From: Leucothrix mucor DSM 2157
Lineage (GTDB): Bacteria > Pseudomonadota > Gammaproteobacteria > Thiotrichales > Thiotrichaceae
DNA: 64,000 bases
Assembly (NCBI RefSeq): GCF_000419525.1
Contig: NZ_ATTE01000002.1
Span: 1 to 64,000, forward strand
Direction of reading: 5' to 3'
Shown: in pieces, positions 2,248 to 64,000 of the stretch
How positions within the stretch are numbered: position 1 is the first letter of the stretch
Layout: every line of letters starts with the position of its first letter
Notes under the pieces: generated by a model
What the model was told of the DNA's origin: nothing
Seen by the model: only the letters and a program-made list of their open reading frames with translations
Database searches by the model: none
Made by a program: the position numbers and the translations under genes

Positions 2248-2312
2248 TGACAAGATTACTTATCCGCTGTATATGTCCTTAGGACATATACAGCGGATAA
2301 GTAATCTTGTCA
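2248..2312. promoter_or_regulatory. 65-bp near-perfect palindrome overlapping the AbiEi start
   Basis: A 32-bp left arm (2248-2279), beginning TGACAAGATTACTTATCC, is an exact inverted copy of the right arm (2281-2312), separated by a single base. The AbiEi TTG start codon (2307) lies inside the right arm. AbiEi antitoxins are known to repress their own operon by binding inverted repeats, so this is the obvious operator. As RNA it would fold into a very stable hairpin holding the start codon. Confidence 0.8.
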
Positions 2313-3185
2313 GATAAAAAAACATTAGCGGTTGAACTGCAACAAACGATACTCACCGAGCACTCAGAAGCACTAATCAGTCGGTATGAATTTGTAAAGT
2401 ATCGGGCAGCACTGAAGCGACAAGAGCAGGACACGGCCATTCTGAGAAGTGCGCACATCAACACGTTAATCAAAACATTTATCAATACCGGAATCATCAC
2501 TCCAGTACAGGACTTGCCCGTCTATAAATTAGTGGGTCACCCAGCTCCCTCGGCACAGCAGGTAATCTGCAAGCTAAATCCATTTTGTTACTTGTCTCAC
2601 TTAAGTGCGATGGAGTGGCATCACCTGACAGATCGTATCCCTCACTCTCTCCATGTAGTGACCTGCAGTGCGGCACAGTTCAAACAGCTAGCTTCTGAAC
2701 TAGCTGCGGCCGATTTCCCAAATGATCAGCGCATCCCTTTTGTACCGGTCAAGCCTTATACTATTCAGGAGAAAATTCTGGACCGACAGATTGAGGTACA
2801 CCAACGCAAGCTGTTTAAGAATCCACTGCCACTAGATGATAGTGGTGGGGTTCGAGTGGCCTCGATTGGCCAAACCTTTTTAGACATGCTGAAGGAGCCC
2901 GAGTTTTGTGGCGGTTTCGCGCATGTGCTGAACGTCTTTGAGGATCACGCCGCGCACTATTTATCCATCATTGTTAAAGCCACTGAGCGCGATGGCAAGC
3001 CCATTGATAAGGTCCGTATGGGCTATGTACTGGAAGAACACTTAGGTCTCTCTCACCCCAAAATAGAAACATGGAAGACGCTGGCACAGCGTGGAGGCTC
3101 CAGAGTATTAGTTGCGGGGCAGCCCTTTAGTGAAACGTATTCCGAAACCTGGAGTCTTTCGATAAACTTGCCCGATGGAATCTAA
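2307..3185 (+). CDS. abiEi: AbiEi-type antitoxin (type IV toxin-antitoxin)
   Basis: A 292-residue protein. Its N-terminal part looks like a winged helix (EALISRYEFVKYRAALKRQ). A central AbiEi-like segment (LNPFCYLSHLSAMEWHHL) is followed by the C-terminal domain with RVASIGQTFLDMLKEPEFCG and the RMGYVLEEHLGL motif. The start is a TTG at 2307, the only plausible start because an in-frame stop precedes it and no in-frame ATG follows for a long way. In the family, AbiEi neutralises AbiEii and represses the operon through inverted repeats; here the start codon sits inside a palindrome. The gene overlaps the toxin gene by 11 bases, indicating translational coupling. Confidence 0.85.
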   Translation: MSDKKTLAVELQQTILTEHSEALISRYEFVKYRAALKRQEQDTAILRSAHINTLIKTFINTGIITPVQDLPVYKLVGHPAPSAQQVICKLNPFCYLSHLSAMEWHHLTDRIPHSLHVVTCSAAQFKQLASELAAADFPNDQRIPFVPVKPYTIQEKILDRQIEVHQRKLFKNPLPLDDSGGVRVASIGQTFLDMLKEPEFCGGFAHVLNVFEDHAAHYLSIIVKATERDGKPIDKVRMGYVLEEHLGLSHPKIETWKTLAQRGGSRVLVAGQPFSETYSETWSLSINLPDGI

Positions 3186-4053
3186 TATCGCCGAATGGGT
3201 CAAGGCAGCCCCAGCGGATCGCCGCTTATTCAGGCAGGCTGTTCATCTGATCTTGCATGGTATTGGTGGTGATGAATACCTGCGTATGAACATGATCATG
3301 AAAGGCGGTATGTTGCTAGGAATTCGATACCAAAGCTCTCGTTATACAGAAGATATCGATTTCTCAATTGGCCATCAGCTCCAGGACATCAATCAGCAAC
3401 ATTTTTCTGACTTACTCAAAGATGCCTTAGTGGTTGCAGAGGATGAGTTGCCGTATCAAGTCACCTGCCGGCTTCAGTCATTAAAAGTCCAACCCAAACA
3501 GGGCGGCACCTTCCCCTCTCTTAAAATGCAAATCGCTTACTCAGACCCCAGAGACCAGCGAAGCATGCAACGTATTGAACGAGGAGACTCGCCCAAAACC
3601 GTTAAAATTGATTACAGCTTTAATGAAGCCAGTTATCAAATCGAAGAACTTAGCCTTGCGGGTGAAGAGGTCATTCAAGCTTATGCGTTAGTGGATATTA
3701 TCGCTGAAAAATTAAGGTCAGTGATTCAACAAGTGGTTAGAAAACGTAACCGGCGACAAGACATCTATGATCTTTGGTATTTGCTAACAACCTGCCCCCC
3801 ACTATCTGAGGCAGAAAAACAGCAAGTCCTAAATAGCTTTAAACGCAAGTCAGCAGCGCGCTTAGACGCCTCTTTGATTCAAGCCTCCACCTTCAGCAGA
3901 CCAGATGTAAGAGCCGCCTCACTTGTTGGGTACGAATTACTAAAGGATGAGGTCATGGGCGAGCTACCGAGATTTGATCTGGCCTATAACCATGTATGCG
4001 AGTTTTATGAGTCTCTACCTTGGTCATCTTTTGGGTCTTCGAACAGCATTTAA
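3175..4053 (+). CDS. abiEii: AbiEii-type nucleotidyltransferase toxin
   Basis: A 292-residue protein of the AbiEii/AbiGii family. The nucleotidyltransferase core is visible as KGGMLLGIRYQSSRYTEDID, with the GG and D-x-D residues that bind nucleotide and metal. A third acidic strand (TVKIDYS) and the downstream EKLRS...RRQDIYDLWYLL motif are typical of the family. These toxins modify tRNA or other targets to halt growth, either on phage infection or on plasmid loss. It overlaps the antitoxin stop by 11 bases and shares its operon. No missing catalytic residue is apparent, so it is probably active. Confidence 0.9.
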   Translation: MESNIAEWVKAAPADRRLFRQAVHLILHGIGGDEYLRMNMIMKGGMLLGIRYQSSRYTEDIDFSIGHQLQDINQQHFSDLLKDALVVAEDELPYQVTCRLQSLKVQPKQGGTFPSLKMQIAYSDPRDQRSMQRIERGDSPKTVKIDYSFNEASYQIEELSLAGEEVIQAYALVDIIAEKLRSVIQQVVRKRNRRQDIYDLWYLLTTCPPLSEAEKQQVLNSFKRKSAARLDASLIQASTFSRPDVRAASLVGYELLKDEVMGELPRFDLAYNHVCEFYESLPWSSFGSSNSI

Positions 4054-4594: not shown

Positions 4595-4856
4595 CAGTGT
4601 ACTGCAACAAGTCTACCGGTCTAGTGTGTTCCAGGTTGCGCCAGGACAGCTCAAACTGCACAGAGGAAGCTTTCAGGCCGCCCGAGTCGCCGCAAAGACA
4701 CTCCCGAACTTGATGTACGGCTTTGCCGCACGTTCGGCAGTTGCGGCCATTCGGGCAGCTCTTACACCATCCTCTGCTGCTTTGACCTGCACTTATGCAA
4801 CGTCGGCGAGATGCTTTCGTAGTTTCTATAATTTACGTCTGCGCCTCCACTAAAGG
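4595..4856 (+). repeat. Leader repeat, Ash-like copy 3 (divergent)
   Basis: About 260 bp, clearly related to the two near-identical repeats at 61039 and 62634: gtctaccggtcta, gttgcgccag, the reading GTCTGCGCCTCCAC near the 3' end, and a shared open frame (AARVAAKTLPNLMYGFAAR... against ALRVASETLPCFMRGFATR...). The frame resembles P4-phage Ash-type ORFs, so it is more likely a structured leader or regulatory element than a real gene. It lies about 200 bp upstream of the 222-residue gene at 5055. Confidence 0.6.
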
Positions 4857-32420: not shown

Positions 32421-33275
32421 ATGAGCAACTTATACCAGCAGATCGCCGATAAAATCCTGAAGGCTTTAGAAAGCGGTGTACGCCCTTGGGAGTGCTGCTA
32501 CTCAGTCACACAAGCGGGCTTCGCCTTGCGGGCGACTGGTGAGCCATATCGCGGCATTAATCGGTTTTTATTAACCTTTGCCATGATCGAGAATCAATAC
32601 ACCCATCCGGTTTGGATGACATTCAATCAGGCAAAGAAGCTCGGCGGATGTGTACGTAAAGGTGAAAAGGCCTCACTCTCATTATTCTTCAAGCCTTTAG
32701 AGACCATTGAGGAAGATACTCAGGAGGCAAAAGTCATTCCAGTAGCAAAGCGTAATATGGTGTTTAACGTTGAACAGATTGATGGCTTGAACGAGGACTT
32801 TTTAGCCCGCTTTAATGCAAATCCCGTGCTTCACGAGAACACCCCTCAGGAACGCGCTGAGGCCTTTATTCAGGCAATTCCAGCTAATATCGTACAACGT
32901 AATGGCACCCCAGCTTTCAGACCTTCTACAGACGAGATTTTCATGCCGGCTATTACTCAATTTCTATCATCAGAACACTATTATGCAACGTTCCTACACG
33001 AACTGGGCCACTGGTCTGGCCACCGTGATCGGCTGAACCGTGAAACACTGACGGTATTTAGTGCAGTGAACTACAACAAAGAAGAGCTATGTGCTGAGCT
33101 GACCGCCGCATTCCTGTGCCCCAGTTTAGGCATTGAACCTCTAGTCGATCACGAACATGCACCCTATATTGACGGCTACATCAAACTACTTAAAAACGAG
33201 CCTAAAGCCTTCATCACGGCCTGCTCACAGGCTGAGAAGGCTGCGGACTACCTAAAGTCCTTACAAGTCTCCTAA
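32421..33275 (+). CDS. ardC: ArdC-like antirestriction / zincin metallopeptidase-like protein
   Basis: 284 residues. The N-terminal domain is ArdC-like/DUF1738 (YQQIADKILKALESGVRPWE, EPYRGINRFLLTF, WMTFNQAKKLGGCVRKGEK). The C-terminal domain is zincin-like with the zinc motif HELGHWSGH near residue 193 and the later Glu in ELCAELTAAFLC. ArdC proteins bind ssDNA and protect incoming plasmids from restriction. The start has GGAG 8-10 bases upstream (gcggagtaacaagaaATG). A conserved leader repeat precedes it. Confidence 0.92.
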   Translation: MSNLYQQIADKILKALESGVRPWECCYSVTQAGFALRATGEPYRGINRFLLTFAMIENQYTHPVWMTFNQAKKLGGCVRKGEKASLSLFFKPLETIEEDTQEAKVIPVAKRNMVFNVEQIDGLNEDFLARFNANPVLHENTPQERAEAFIQAIPANIVQRNGTPAFRPSTDEIFMPAITQFLSSEHYYATFLHELGHWSGHRDRLNRETLTVFSAVNYNKEELCAELTAAFLCPSLGIEPLVDHEHAPYIDGYIKLLKNEPKAFITACSQAEKAADYLKSLQVS

Positions 33276-59800: not shown

Positions 59801-60255
59801 CCGGCACTCCAGCTACTGAAACAACACCCGCAGTGCCTGCAACCCCTTATATTCCTGCCACTGATCCGATACCGGCCCAACCGGCCGTTGCGGCGACACC
59901 GGTAACGCCTGCTGTCGGGCCATCTCGATTAGAGTTGCGCAAAACGGTTCAAAATACCACGCAGAATACGGCTGAAACGTCGACGGTAAACCAAGCGGCA
60001 CCTGGCGATACGCTGAAATATCGGATTTATTACAGTAATACGGGCACTGGGCCGCTGACGGAGTTGATCGTGAACGATAATGCGCAGGCTTATACTGAAA
60101 TTAAGGCTGGCACCGCTGTGTGTAATACGACGCCCGCTGAAATTACCTCGTGTACGCCGGTGATCAGTGGCGACCGTGTGAGTTGGGAGTTTAACGGACC
60201 ACTAATGGGGGGGAAGTCTGGTTTTGTAAGTTATGACGTTGTTATTGATGAATAA
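53830..60255 (+). CDS. Giant secreted multidomain protein with GEVED and SdrD-B-like domains
   Basis: 2141 residues, signal peptide (LLVAFFVLSCLLLSGQSQAA), ~227 kDa. N-terminal region to ~300 unique; ~300-420 a DUF11/DUF7933-like domain. Asp-rich calcium-binding repeats (DTDGDGIANACDLDDDNDG and relatives) lie at ~430-460 and ~620-715. Three GEVED domains end GEVEDYQ (~937), GEVEDYP (~1331) and GEVEDYP (~1702). An SdrD-B-like domain (~1717-1795: GNGNYRFEDVVPGTYQVYEA) precedes a Pro/Ala linker (~1965-2030) and a C-terminal DUF11-like domain. There is no LPxTG, PEP-CTERM or autotransporter barrel. It is probably a large adhesin or matrix protein secreted by a type 1 or 9-like route; how it is exported is unclear. 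Confidence 0.85.
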   Translation: MKILMSDKNNLTSSLLVAFFVLSCLLLSGQSQAATQILNSNGGQCAFDGSNGGLKVYVGDNSQFQVERCSANGLNSGSRQYYSTSAIPPSGSVFNSIYLRVGSTVFGASGLQAVNTAWTSISSSGGSTLGDGSVITVYSAVTGGLTYTVTQTVTYIFPNDFYSVKLDVGVPVGNTQDVRLYSWTDLMLDGNDNGTCSRIAAFPEYVIADNTAGTMYAGYRQRSVSNHWDRYQCGNYSAAPNTYIAGTQSGDLPNTLVTTNHDVGAAVQWDIGSVSNTTFTADYDFVFSLTEPTLTKRYGPDDGDVDHTMGVGDTTTLTFDITNRPGNPAQGPLSFTETLPLNVTIVGTPAASQCGGTVTTGTSGGRGTITLAGGQMTGGTQSCTVVADVTSVTAGVYDDPSTNISNINELKNIAQAELTVTAAVESSACATGVDTDGDGIANACDLDDDNDGIIDKNEGVTRNYQWTTWNASSGNAITGTAFGIGVSYTSSQTVETTSSLYHHATVPSEYLVPDSTSIKNTVASDNTITFSQPVENPLFVFTSVGNPSTSVPVIFNKDIQVLWGTGEAGGAYTVDSLRQFTANEGFLVVRVPGTHSSVSFQYTANENYANFTFGYAATTAIDSDGDGIDDYLDLDSDNDGIPDTIEAQTTASYLVAVNIDTDNDGLDNAFDLDDNNTAEAASAGLTPVNTDGDTQNDILDLDSDNDGLTDLAESGLSLLDADANGKTDGVVGTNGLDNEGEAADTYADNNGSSHDGTNFLLADFDNDTAANGSDAVPLTKDLSYRDIERDRSDAPTSFGEATHSLVSGLKLGVTVDSDGTSIESNDASGDGSDDDGVFTDAALTTGFQDASLNLEDSVTLYVPVTGSGKLSAWIDWNGDGDFADLGEQIANAVAGADETLAVVVNVPLSATLATAYARFRFSSDTAASTPTGAASDGEVEDYQIIIANNAVAPTAPAIAYCSNTWVLDNGVYRSITNQGVVISASTTASSGAAWSFSPNDAFNETGSFSLSTLNGSPSLSTVFTWDTSPEDGRLANAATDAATGTLTFAFGVPVKNPIIHIDRQGGYGSSSAATPMGLSNSSIITPNTANSAATFTRLAGTTHFDVTTNTIQRTPNETMQETGVTGLSGVDSSVHTAMGSVQVNGTYNNLSLDFSGVGVEGAGADGIEFIVCAEPYDYGDAPTNYGEATHKIPETPIVYLGDIAPDHEPQIQNTANGGADGLGDDQNGSDDEDAYDTLPAIWTTQSQYRLKVDCSDQGAYVSGWVDFNQNNQFDAGERNTDYPTRCNVSGNVTLNWTGLSGLSPGTTYARLRIASDSVEASTATGTATDGEVEDYPVIIQAPGATPGVCVGEPSWLNTSGQSADPTSNWALNWAERGINANVSFSTTMTGNNAKWTAAPAKALTESAFANRFGSPGYGVNLNYPEDLSGAGETSAYFTFDKSLPANTYMVIRDIDATDESITFSGNNLGSLPAPSLWETQSPLNATANSPSLFASWDSVSQQIVTLSDGPNNDQEAYVWPVTGLTSIRATYQTYAGSANIGFVSCVPQDYGDAPESYKTSKANAGPQHGIINGVYLGSNTPDADIDGQASIAANGDGADEDGISTLAALTTSDRTYSATVKASNDTSSQATLTAWIDFDRNGTFDADEVAIQPVPAGSNQTSFTLNWSNIPVDIQTGDTYVRVRLTTDSLNNREPNGPKLDGEVEDYPITITTAGVTVSGRVFNDANVSAANDSGEVGVTQLPVVLIKIETNPVNNRCVSARTDGNGNYRFEDVVPGTYQVYEASRESVPVPRNCSIASAKNPGSYRSTTDNVRAEFTVTTSDITKQDFGDVKLPVFEPDNSAQILPGNVLFYAHKFTTRAKGSVSFASASSGNRSSGWSSILYRDANCDGKLNQSDGTTPIGTSAISVSALDNICVINKVYAPANVAANDQYIQTITADFNYNNAIAGTLALKVQDVTVAQQVQAPALPATPAVVAADVVEAQEEQPATSGTPATETTPAVPATPYIPATDPIPAQPAVAATPVTPAVGPSRLELRKTVQNTTQNTAETSTVNQAAPGDTLKYRIYYSNTGTGPLTELIVNDNAQAYTEIKAGTAVCNTTPAEITSCTPVISGDRVSWEFNGPLMGGKSGFVSYDVVIDE

Positions 60256-60443
60256 TTAATTCCAAGTTGGGCAAACACTGTTCGATGGCTTTGCTGCTTA
60301 TTAACTTATAACTTATTAGGTCGCTAGCAGTAGCATGCCTTATGCGTCTACTAGGTCATTTGTTGTAAATAATGGACGGTCAGTCTGATCTAATCGACTT
60401 GGTGGACGCTTTGGAGGTTCACATCTATTGAGCTTTAGTACTC
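60256..60443. other. Short non-coding gap after the giant gene
   Basis: About 190 bp without a gene; the next gene runs on the opposite strand. No clear terminator hairpin. Confidence 0.35.
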
Positions 60444-60740
60444 TCACTCACGGGCACGAGGGCCAACACGGGAGCCACCCGAAAGTCCTCCGGTGATTGG
60501 CGATGTTTTTTGCTGCAACTCAGCATTTACTTGAGCTTGGGCCTGAGCCTTTATAAACATGTTTAAGTTATGCACTGCTTTCGAATTTTCTGCCGGTGTC
60601 ACTACTCTCATTGCCACTTTAGCGGCATCACTAGACGCTACTTTTTTAGCTGCACCTGTGGCGATAGCATTAGCACTTACGACTTGAGGTAGAGAAACTG
60701 AAGCGATAAGAACGATTGGTGCAAGGTAACGAAACATCAT
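60444..60740 (-). CDS. Small secreted protein with GSRVxPRxR tail
   Basis: 98 residues from ATG 60740 (AGGTGG upstream; a GTG at 60749 is also possible). Signal peptide (FRYLAPIVLIASVSLPQVVS), an Ala-rich mature region (NAIATGAAKKVASSDAAKVA), a Gln/Ala-rich stretch, and a C-terminus TGGLSGGSRVGPRARE. The tail shares GSRV-x-PR-x-R with the protein at 51733. Function unknown. Confidence 0.65.
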   Translation of the reverse strand: MMFRYLAPIVLIASVSLPQVVSANAIATGAAKKVASSDAAKVAMRVVTPAENSKAVHNLNMFIKAQAQAQVNAELQQKTSPITGGLSGGSRVGPRARE

Positions 60741-61038
60741 AATATCCACCTAATTAATTGCCTTAAACATACGCTTTAAAATAATTTGTATGAATATTAG
60801 TCTTTCTGGTTTTTGATTAGTTCAGTACTAGCCCCTCGGTACAAACTCACAATCGTTGCTGCCTGATACTACTCCCCAGTTACTCATGATCTAACTTCAA
60901 GACCGACCTGGTGTGTCACGGCAGAGAATTATTTTCACTTGGCTAATACCTGAATTAACCCAATCCGTTAAAACAAATAGTCTGTTTTCAGTTGCTAGTA
61001 CTTTTGATGGTGGGGGGTTATGAGTATTTAAGGATGGT
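60741..61038. other. Non-coding region
   Basis: About 300 bp, AT-rich, between the leftward small secreted gene and the leader repeat. No gene seen. Confidence 0.35.
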
Positions 61039-61302
61039 AAGTGCCTGCTGAGAGAGGTCTACCGGTCTAACTTTTTTCGTGTTGCGCCAGTCCACCCCAA
61101 TCCTGCGCATCGGAAACCTTCAGGCTCTCAGAGTCGCCTCAGAGACACTACCGTGCTTTATGCGAGGCTTCGCCACGCGCACGGAAGTTGAGGCCATTCT
61201 GAGCGCTCTTGCGGTATCCTCTACTTGGCTTTGGTTGCACTTCTGCAACGTCGGCGGGGTAGGGCTGTCGTTCTGTTTGGCTTGCGTCTGCGCCTCCGCG
61301 GT
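61039..61302 (+). repeat. Ash-like leader repeat, copy 1
   Basis: 264 bp, about 85-90% identical by eye to 62634-62898 and related to 4595-4856. It carries an open frame with ALRVASETLPCFMRGFATRT, EVEAILSALAVSS and C-rich ends (Ash-type). It sits about 107 bp upstream of the DUF4143 ATPase gene. Confidence 0.8.
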
Positions 61303-61371
61303 GAGGAATATTGTGATTGTTTGTGCCTTGGATGGTGAATTGAGTACTTTATTGTTGATCAAGCCTATTTA

Positions 61372-61409
61372 TCCTTGTAATTTTAATTCCTGCCGTTAAA
61401 ATTACAAGG
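61372..61409. promoter_or_regulatory. Inverted repeat covering the ribosome site of the DUF4143 gene
   Basis: CCTTGTAATTTT (61372-61383) / AAAATTACAAGG (61398-61409), a perfect 12-bp inverted repeat with a 14-nt loop. It ends at the AAGG of the ribosome site, one base before the ATG. It could be an operator or an RBS-sequestering hairpin, like the palindrome at 2248. Confidence 0.7.
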
Positions 61410-62579
61410 ATGATTAAAAGACCTCTCGCACACAATAAAATCGAAAAAGCGCTTAAGCGACAGCCTGCTGTTGCAATGATTGGGCCACGCCAAGTTGGAA
61501 AAACAACACTGGCAAAGTCAATTGCTCAGAATAGACCTTCAATCTACCTGGACCTTGAACGAGCTGAAGACCGTGCAAAATTAAGTAGCCCGAGAACTTA
61601 CTTAAAAAGCCATCAAGACAAGTTAGTTGTATTAGATGAAATACATCGAGTACCTGAGTTATTCAATGAGCTGAGAGGGATCATTGATGAAGGACGAGAA
61701 AGTGGACATGAGAACGGTCGCTTTTTAATCCTTGGTTCAGCATCTATGGATTTGATGCAACAATCAGAAACGCTGGCTGGTCGAATTGCTTATATTGACC
61801 TGCCGCCTTTATTGTATACCGATACACAAGATATTGACCTCAATACCTTATGGCTTCGAGGGGGCTACCCAAGGAGTCTTCTAGCTGCCGATGATGAAGA
61901 TAGTTTCGATAACCGGCTAGACTTCATCCGTTCATATCTCGATCGTGATGTCCCCATGTTTGCTCCACGGATGTCTGCAACGTCCGTGGGTAACTTATGG
62001 ACTATGCTAGCTCATGGGCAAGGGGGGCTACTTAACTCATCAAAACTGGCAGGAAACCTTGGTGTTTCAAGCCCTGCCATCAGCCGTTACTTAGACCTTT
62101 TAACTGACCTATTGCTGGTTAGACGCTTGCCTCCTTATTTTACCAACACCAAAAAAAGGTTAGTTAAAGCACCAAAAACATATGTGCGGGATAGTGGTTT
62201 GGTTCATGCACTTTTAGGTATCGAGTCGCGGGACGAACTGCTAGGGCATCCCGTTGTAGGAAGTAGCTGGGAAGGTTTTGTTATTGAAAATATACTCAGT
62301 GCTGCCCCTCGTCGAACACAAGCCAGTTTTTATCGTTCCAGTGCAGGGGCTGAAATCGATCTGGTTTTAAACATGGGGGCCAAACATGGTGTTTGGGCAA
62401 TTGAAATAAAGCTTTCAGAAGCCCCAAGTACTAGTAAAGGCTTACACTCTGCAATGATCGATATTCAACCTGACAAGACATTTATTGTTTATTCCGGTAA
62501 TGATCGTTACCCAAAGACAGACAGTATTGAAGTCATCTCTTTGCCAGGATTGTTGGATGAATTACTCGCCTTGCATTGA
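61410..62579 (+). CDS. DUF4143-family AAA ATPase
   Basis: 389 residues. Walker A GPRQVGKTTLAKS near residue 25, Walker B-like LVVLDEIHRVPEL, then a DUF4143 domain with GASPAISRYLDLL-like motif (SSPAISRYLDLLTDLLLVRR) and a C-terminal nuclease-like EIDLVLN...EIKLSEAPS. ATPases of this family appear in defence, toxin-like and mobile islands; function is mostly unknown. It lies alone between two leader repeats with a hairpin over its start. Confidence 0.9.
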   Translation: MIKRPLAHNKIEKALKRQPAVAMIGPRQVGKTTLAKSIAQNRPSIYLDLERAEDRAKLSSPRTYLKSHQDKLVVLDEIHRVPELFNELRGIIDEGRESGHENGRFLILGSASMDLMQQSETLAGRIAYIDLPPLLYTDTQDIDLNTLWLRGGYPRSLLAADDEDSFDNRLDFIRSYLDRDVPMFAPRMSATSVGNLWTMLAHGQGGLLNSSKLAGNLGVSSPAISRYLDLLTDLLLVRRLPPYFTNTKKRLVKAPKTYVRDSGLVHALLGIESRDELLGHPVVGSSWEGFVIENILSAAPRRTQASFYRSSAGAEIDLVLNMGAKHGVWAIEIKLSEAPSTSKGLHSAMIDIQPDKTFIVYSGNDRYPKTDSIEVISLPGLLDELLALH

Positions 62580-62633
62580 TTATGGTTATGAATCTGGATC
62601 TGGATCTGGTTATATTTCCATTTTGAGGAGGCT

Positions 62634-62898
62634 AAGTGCCTGCTGAGAGTTATCTACCCGTTTAACTTCTTTCGTGTTGCGCCAGCCCACCCCAATCCTG
62701 CACACCGGAAACCTTCAGGCCCTCAGAGCCGCCTCAGAGACACTACCGTGCTTTATGCGAGGCTTCGCCACGCGCACGGAAGTTGAGGCCATTCTGAGCG
62801 CTCTTGCGGTATCCTCTGCTTGTCTTGGGCTGAGCTTCTGCAACGTCGGCGGGGAGATTCTGTGGGTTCTCCACGCTTGCGTCTGCGCCTCCACGGTA
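62634..62898 (+). repeat. Ash-like leader repeat, copy 2
   Basis: About 265 bp, nearly identical to copy 1 at 61039 over most of its length. The tail reads GTCTGCGCCTCCACGGTAAGG and is directly followed by the GC-rich module at 62909. Confidence 0.8.
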
Positions 62899-62908
62899 AG
62901 GTCGCTTC

Positions 62909-62990
62909 GCGGGCTCCATGCTTCTCCTGCTTACACGTTCGCTTCATCCCTGCGGGTCTTTGCACTTATCACTTTCCCGTTGGTGCTTTA
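62909..62990 (+). repeat. Leader module 1 copy before the WYL regulator
   Basis: GGCTCCATGCTTCTCCTG, TTCGCTTCATCCCTGCGGG, TCTTTGCACTTATCAC. Shares the TTCATCCCTGCGGG core with 38734, 40778 and 49554. Confidence 0.55.
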
Positions 62991-63183
62991 AAATCGTATT
63001 TTTTTGATCCTTTAAGCAAATCTCACTGAACTATTAAAGAAGAGGTGCATGGTTATCGGCTTTTTATTTTATAAAATACGCAATTTTACTGTAGAAAGTA
63101 CGCTCAGCTCATCACAAACTAAAACTGGTAAAAAACTTTACAGTAATTTTTTTGTGGGGTAATTTGATTCACCCGATCAACTG
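62991..63183. promoter_or_regulatory. Upstream region of the WYL regulator
   Basis: About 190 bp, AT-rich, no gene. It contains a partial inverted repeat ACTGGTAAAA / TTTACAGTAA near 63124-63150, a plausible autorepression operator of the WYL protein. Confidence 0.45.
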
Positions 63184-64000
63184 ATGAGATTTCAGATGCC
63201 TTATGAAAAACATGAAGCGATGTTACGCCTCAGAGCCATTGAATTACTGGCTTACTGGGAAGGACGATTAGTTACTAATCGCCTTACTGCTTGGTTTGGA
63301 ATAAGCCGTCAACAAGCCTCATCAGATATCAAACGCTACAACACCACCAACAACCCAGATTCTTTAATACATGACCCTTCAGTCAAAGGTTATGTGCCTA
63401 AGGCTGGCTTTCAGCCAGTCTTAACTAGCGGACAAATCAACGAGTACTTTGAATTAATGTCAGGCTTATTAAATGAGTCTGATGCGGTGACTCTGGAGTC
63501 AGCAGATCACCTCAGCGCGGTGCAGTTACCTGACCGCATGGTAAGGCCTGAAGTGTTCAGGGCGATGAGCCGTGCCTGCCGATCCCGAAGCAGCCTCAAG
63601 ATCATTTATGCCTCGATGAGTAGCCCACTGCTTAAAGAGCGGGTGATCTCGCCACATACGCTTATTTACACAGGGTTTAGGTGGCATGTAAGAGCCTACT
63701 GCCATCTGCGAGAGGAATTCCGGGATTTTATTTTATCCAGGATAGACAGAATACCCAAACCAGCTTCCGAGTCATCTCCGGATCCCTCGCAAGATGCACT
63801 ATGGCATGAGCAGGTTTTGCTGACTTTGGTACCGAACCCTCGGTTGAATGAAGGCCAGAAAGCGTTGGTTGAAAAAGATTTTGGTATGCCTGATGGTAGG
63901 CTGCAAATATCGGTCCGAAAGTCGCTGGCACACTACACGTTACAACGCTATCAAGCGGGAATTACGGCTGATGATGCAAGCAATGAATTGAAGTTTCCGG
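63184..64000 (+). CDS. BrxR/CapW-like WYL-domain regulator (5' part)
   Basis: An open frame from ATG 63184 to the window end (272 codons; the stop lies outside). N-terminal winged helix (MLRLRAIELLAYWEGRLVTN, RLTAWFGISRQQASSDIKRY), then PSVKGYVPKAGFQPVLTSGQ and a WYL-like domain (SSLKIIYASMSSPLLKERVI, TLIYTGFRWHVRAYCHLREE). This is the layout of BrxR and CapW, which repress BREX and CBASS operons until phage infection. A defence operon probably follows beyond the window. Confidence 0.85.
   Translation, partial: MRFQMPYEKHEAMLRLRAIELLAYWEGRLVTNRLTAWFGISRQQASSDIKRYNTTNNPDSLIHDPSVKGYVPKAGFQPVLTSGQINEYFELMSGLLNESDAVTLESADHLSAVQLPDRMVRPEVFRAMSRACRSRSSLKIIYASMSSPLLKERVISPHTLIYTGFRWHVRAYCHLREEFRDFILSRIDRIPKPASESSPDPSQDALWHEQVLLTLVPNPRLNEGQKALVEKDFGMPDGRLQISVRKSLAHYTLQRYQAGITADDASNELKFP

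Follow-up and report, generated by a model that had tools for sequence, protein, structure and literature searches.

The brxR gene cut by the right edge of the window (64,000 bases) very probably encodes a BrxR orthologue and heads a complete type I BREX operon, an assignment in which comparison with characterised and predicted relatives gives us high confidence. The window corresponds to positions 1–64,000 of contig C2 (89,037 bp) of Leucothrix mucor DSM 2157, and genes beyond its edge are given in C2 numbering, which continues that of the window. In its BREX part the locus follows the textbook layout, and regulator and operon alike belong, as ordinary members, to known families. A separable two-gene module, M25A–M25B, is nested between pglX and pglZ. 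For the PDC-M25 family, to which these genes belong, the locus adds a clean comparison of an empty with a filled junction, together with evidence that unrelated defence operons share this family.

BrxR and the operon behind it

The open reading frame at 63184–64000 (+ strand) is present and remains open to the window edge; the full gene ends at position 64062 of the contig. Counted from the first ATG of the frame, the complete protein has 292 residues. Its start codon is probably the ATG at 63196 (MPYEKHE...), because 7T8K and the Acinetobacter and Vibrio annotations begin there in the alignment. A phmmer search aligned it end to end with BrxR from Acinetobacter sp. NEB394 (PDB 7T8K; 418.9 bits, E 6.4e-125; match spanning residues 5–272), whereas CapW structures gave weaker matches (E 1e-35 to 1e-40). 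The WYL domain PF13280 was detected at E 3.6e-15, and the motifs GISRQQASSDIKRY and KGYVP were both found. The product is a winged helix-turn-helix–WYL protein with full-length similarity to a characterised BrxR, in which Arg47 is conserved within DIKRY; in the NEB394 protein this residue is required for DNA binding, and the R47A substitution abolishes it (PMC9122589). The preliminary description had recognised a WYL/winged-helix regulator of the BrxR/CapW kind, and the comparison narrows this to BrxR, well ahead of CapW.

Six core genes follow brxR directly within about 15 kb, all on the + strand: brxA (64076–64702), which begins 13 nt past the brxR stop codon, brxB (64657–65280), brxC (65295–68996), pglX (69010–72585), pglZ (74478–77099), and brxL (77126–79165). 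Each of the six matches PADLOC models along essentially its whole length, as well as Pfam BREX families where such families exist, and the type I core is complete in one operon. The catalytic motifs of pglX (NPPY, DPASGSG), pglZ (SDAFRYE, TADHG), and brxL (GPRGTGKS) are intact. Compared with the BREX operon of Vibrio tubiashii p123, the core proteins are 75–93% identical, with the exception of PglX at only 49%, a value that fits what is expected of a variable specificity protein under diversification. Among 63 genomes of the order, seven contain PglZ relatives, and the single one in L. mucor DSM 2157 is carried by the plasmid.

The regulator had been expected to precede a phage-defence operon, with BREX, CBASS, and DISARM among the types proposed. 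Once the sequence to the right of the window was obtained and scanned with PADLOC, BREX proved to be the type present, and neither CBASS nor DISARM. The alternative that the gene is a lone WYL regulator, with no defence operon following it, has virtually no chance of being correct: nothing was found in its favour, and the six co-directional core genes rule it out.

Taken together with what is known of relatives, these features suggest how the operon would work. BrxR would act as an autoregulated repressor at the head of the operon, its dimer binding a pseudo-palindrome over the −35 box (63122–63146) and lowering transcription of the whole unit. PglX, together with the other BREX proteins, would add site-specific m6A methylation to a six-base motif in the host DNA, and the BREX complex would block replication of unmethylated phage DNA.

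Control region and plasmid setting

In NEB394, transcription starts 23 bp upstream of brxR, and BrxR binds from −51 to −27 relative to that start, at a pseudo-palindrome of two 10-nt half-sites spaced by 5 nt that overlaps the −35 box (PMC9122589); these positions place the BrxR site at −74 to −50 relative to the start codon. Leaders of five Acinetobacter plasmids contain a 25-nt pseudo-palindrome of 10-5-10 layout (8–9 of 10 positions symmetric) that starts exactly 74 nt ahead of the ATG, with a −35/−10 pair after it. The homologous block in L. mucor begins the same 74 nt before the ATG, at 63122, and that of V. tubiashii is off by one base.

The predicted BrxR operator AAACTGGTAAAAAACTTTACAGTAA (63122–63146, + strand), recognised by this offset and by its conservation in relatives, comprises two 10-nt half-sites with a 5-nt spacer at −74 to −50 from ATG 63196. 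The predicted brx promoter (63137–63165, + strand), also part of the conserved block, consists of a −35 box, TTTACA (63137–63142), a 17-nt spacer, and a −10 box, TAATTT (63160–63165). The −35 box falls inside the right operator half-site, an overlap of the kind found in NEB394, and both position and sequence fit a pseudo-palindromic operator upstream of brxR. Symmetry is lower here, at 6 of 10 positions compared to 8–9 of 10 in the Acinetobacter and Vibrio relatives, so the affinity of the operator may differ from theirs.

Across the 42-nt operator/promoter block, 30 positions are identical here, a value that no leader sequence among 5000 Markov shuffles reached; with V. tubiashii alone the count is 28 of 42, which one shuffle equalled. 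The predictions of operator and promoter rest on conservation and position. The promoter, although conserved, escaped a simple promoter scan, owing to the poor −10 box TAATTT. Phylogenetic footprinting at this locus represents independent support for the NEB394 operator.

Further upstream, an AAA_14–DUF4143 ATPase gene (61410–62579, + strand; Pfam DUF4143 E 1.2e-42, AAA_14 E 3.5e-25), which PADLOC lists as the single-gene candidate PDC-S01 (E 7.8e-83), is bracketed by two copies of a 280-bp repeat. The copies, located with blastn on the + strand, lie upstream of the DUF4143 gene (61027–61306) and upstream of the brx promoter (62622–62901) and are 88% identical; blastn placed a third, about 71% identical, at 4612–4850, beyond an AbiEii-containing gene pair. 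Within the genome, the three copies occur on the plasmid only. A single strand of the repeat folds better than shuffled sequences (z −3.0), and an Rfam scan of 60200–64000 gave no match. A blastn search of 72,556 plasmids with the repeat and leader gave no match, and across the 63 genomes of the order just one repeat match was found in another genome. This match, a partial relative near a umuC gene, is in another genome of the genus. The repeats may delimit exchangeable cargo.

It had also been proposed that the regulator shares an island with the DUF4143 ATPase and with the repeats. As neighbours in a plasmid island they may do so, but the evidence speaks against a single transcription unit with BREX, because a conserved promoter of its own precedes brxR, both repeats lying upstream of the predicted operator/promoter (63122–63165), and because close BREX relatives in Acinetobacter and Vibrio carry other upstream genes. 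No link of the repeats to BREX regulation was found. The ATP-binding gene upstream of the operon in Acinetobacter WCHA55 was considered as a DUF4143 homologue and rejected, as it gave no match at E 1e-3; its lack of homology argues against a conserved DUF4143–BREX link.

The best reading of contig C2 is a circular plasmid that is probably conjugative. The umuC reading frame is continuous across its two ends, which indicates circularity, and this is joined by the F-type transfer genes TraG_N and TraC and by an ArdC-type gene. The last of these encodes an ArdC-type anti-restriction protein (ArdcN and MPTase-PolyVal domains; 32421–33275), so that the plasmid would combine restriction-like defence with anti-restriction. 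Other loci on C2 resemble defence genes. Two adjoining genes at 2307–4053, the second matching AbiEii (E 7e-28), represent an AbiE-type toxin–antitoxin candidate. To the right of the window, on the minus strand, a three-gene module (79466–83677) encodes a 250-residue protein of no assigned family, a 747-residue E2–E1(ThiF)–JAB fusion, and a further protein matching PADLOC models of the metallo-beta-lactamase type (LmuA, E 3e-13; RTasMBL); it is likely a bacterial ubiquitin-like defence module beside BREX. Three + strand genes follow at 83830–85648, the last of which encodes an M78 peptidase with a PADLOC match to CapP (E 1.7e-46), which suggests a defence regulator adjoining the E2–E1–JAB module. 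The AbiE, DUF4143, BREX, and E2–E1–JAB loci may lie side by side within a single defence island of the plasmid.

The M25A–M25B pair between pglX and pglZ

M25A (72582–73736, + strand; PDC-M25A model, E 3e-164) and M25B (73738–74481, + strand, GTG start; PDC-M25B model, E 1.3e-98) are adjoining genes and together supply both components of the PADLOC candidate system PDC-M25, a name not found in the open-access papers searched. As judged from the gene junctions, its insertion into the operon is clean, because the pglX/M25A and M25B/pglZ junctions are 4-nt overlaps here and in V. tubiashii pglX and pglZ meet in a bare 4-nt overlap with nothing between.

Structure models were built on the Marinobacter proteins of a related locus (L019), which are 62–66% identical. 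M25A contains Walker A, Walker B, and H-loop motifs, and its model resembles PtuA, Rad50, and SMC heads (Foldseek E ~1e-12); by motifs and model, it is an ABC ATPase of the OLD/Rad50/PtuA type. The M25B model (pLDDT 92) places an invariant GEGxxD after strand 1 and a DxD after strand 3, positions that fit the Toprim pattern and make M25B a candidate Toprim-like protein. Foldseek returned no match to this model at E 0.001 or better, and PDB sequence searches with M25B found no match, even with a profile and a cutoff of E 10. OLD nuclease domains appeared in the structural list at VIA Z 5.0–5.6, below unrelated lumazine synthase entries, and neither was taken as a relative.

Could the nested pair simply be PARIS (AriA–AriB), as in the Salmonella D23580 BREX operon? 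Like PARIS there, it is nested in a type I BREX operon with the ATPase gene before the Toprim-like gene, generic AriA models match the M25A ATPase (E 1e-22), and the EGxxD...DxD pattern is held in common. However, the likeness of M25A to AriA is limited to the ABC core (58 columns), and M25B has no AriB/DUF4435 match in PADLOC or Pfam. Its profile is unrelated to that of AriB (hhalign E 0.42), whereas a control AriB from the Oceanisphaera locus (L016) scores E 5e-22. Moreover, M25AB and a PARIS pair occur together in one BREX operon in Oceanisphaera and in two uncultured betaproteobacteria (L093 and L095). PARIS membership, which calls for AriB, a DUF4435 Toprim nuclease, beside AriA, was rejected for the pair, and we regard identity with PARIS as very improbable.

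A scan of species genomes recovered 77 loci with an M25B frame, with M25A directly upstream in 75. BREX core genes flank 19 of the 77 loci on both sides (16 between pglX and pglZ, two between brxC and pglX, and one within a multi-insert operon), and at a further six a BREX-type gene lies on just one side. The pglX–pglZ slot seen in L. mucor also holds the pair in Acinetobacter WCHA55 and Azotobacter salinestris, and Moellerella and Oceanisphaera carry it between brxC and pglX. In L093, from an uncultured member of the Nitrosomonadales, and in L095, stacked OLD-ATPase modules that include M25AB and PARIS occupy the pglX–pglZ interval. In a relative from the family to which L. mucor itself belongs (L099, 4257–12780), the pair is inserted in a type I Wadjet operon, with jetB on one side and jetC on the other, and elsewhere it adjoins type I restriction–modification genes and a DISARM-type methylase. 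These settings are evidence, at the level of gene neighbourhoods, that the M25AB family is common to unrelated defence operons.

The same survey bears on whether the pair is coupled to its host operon. According to one explanation, the two M25AB genes form a mobile defence or toxin–antitoxin unit of their own, functionally uncoupled from BREX, for which the operon is only a landing site and promoter donor. At 52 of the 77 loci no BREX gene was detected in the available flank, although short contigs may merely have ended there, and many loci lack a close same-strand neighbour. A second M25A–M25B pair stands alone on the L. mucor chromosome (L102, 8794–10752), beside ABC transporter genes and without BREX, and a quick tree with several unsupported forks implies that the setting switched between BREX and non-BREX at least 15 times. 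Conversely, the pair has been recruited repeatedly into the same two BREX slots, and also into Wadjet and to sites beside type I restriction–modification genes, and the co-directional, short-overlap insertions suggest selection for co-expression with the host system. An independent unit falls just short of an even chance in our estimate.

Our preferred reading gives M25AB a PARIS-like role as a guard of BREX, a role that we hold with slightly less than even confidence. By analogy with PARIS, the M25A ATPase would serve as a sensor that releases or activates a nuclease once the host system is inhibited by phages. The PARIS embedded in Salmonella BREX was inactive in the tests reported so far (PMC11341690), so that guarding is unproven even in its case. 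A broader proposal appears rather unlikely: that M25AB serves generally as a guard, different from PARIS, nesting in unrelated defence operons (the two type I BREX slots, the Wadjet jetB–jetC interval, and sites next to type I restriction–modification and DISARM-like methylase genes) and firing when a phage inhibits the host system.

Comparison with known systems

The closest characterised relative is reminiscent of the present locus in most respects. The type I BREX system of NEB394 (PMC9122589; 7T8K) likewise has brxR first, the same six core genes, the conserved Arg47, and an operator that overlaps the −35 box at an identical distance from the start codon, but it consists of seven genes only, whereas here the PDC-M25A/B pair is inserted between pglX and pglZ.

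Nested modules in BREX have precedents. PARIS within a BREX operon has already been described, in a study whose survey found genes between BREX components in about 7,000 of 12,000 genomes, about 5,000 of them without a known defence system (PMC11341690). The Salmonella D23580 operon of that study also places an ATPase and a small nuclease-like protein inside type I BREX; its pair is ariA–ariB and it has no upstream regulatory gene, in contrast to the PDC-M25 family and brxR found here. Modules of an OLD ATPase and a TOPRIM protein inside BREX have been described in general terms in the available part of PMC12839542, which, as proposed here, sees a backup effector module inside BREX operons; that part treats OLD-ABC/TOPRIM modules as PARIS-like and does not name the PDC-M25 family.

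Two plasmids provide the nearest comparisons. Acinetobacter sp. WCHA55 pNDM1_010055 has the same gene order, including the M25A/M25B slot (75% and 64% identical), and the same operator offset, and differs in its upstream genes and plasmid backbone. V. tubiashii p123 (NZ_CP009357), a conjugative plasmid, carries the closest BrxR found on plasmids (75–76%) and is the closest BREX relative, differing by its empty pglX–pglZ junction and by its PglX (49%). Matched BREX cores with this junction empty in V. tubiashii and filled in the L. mucor plasmid and Acinetobacter WCHA55 form a natural comparison, and the close similarity of the empty and filled operons makes guarding by nested modules directly testable.
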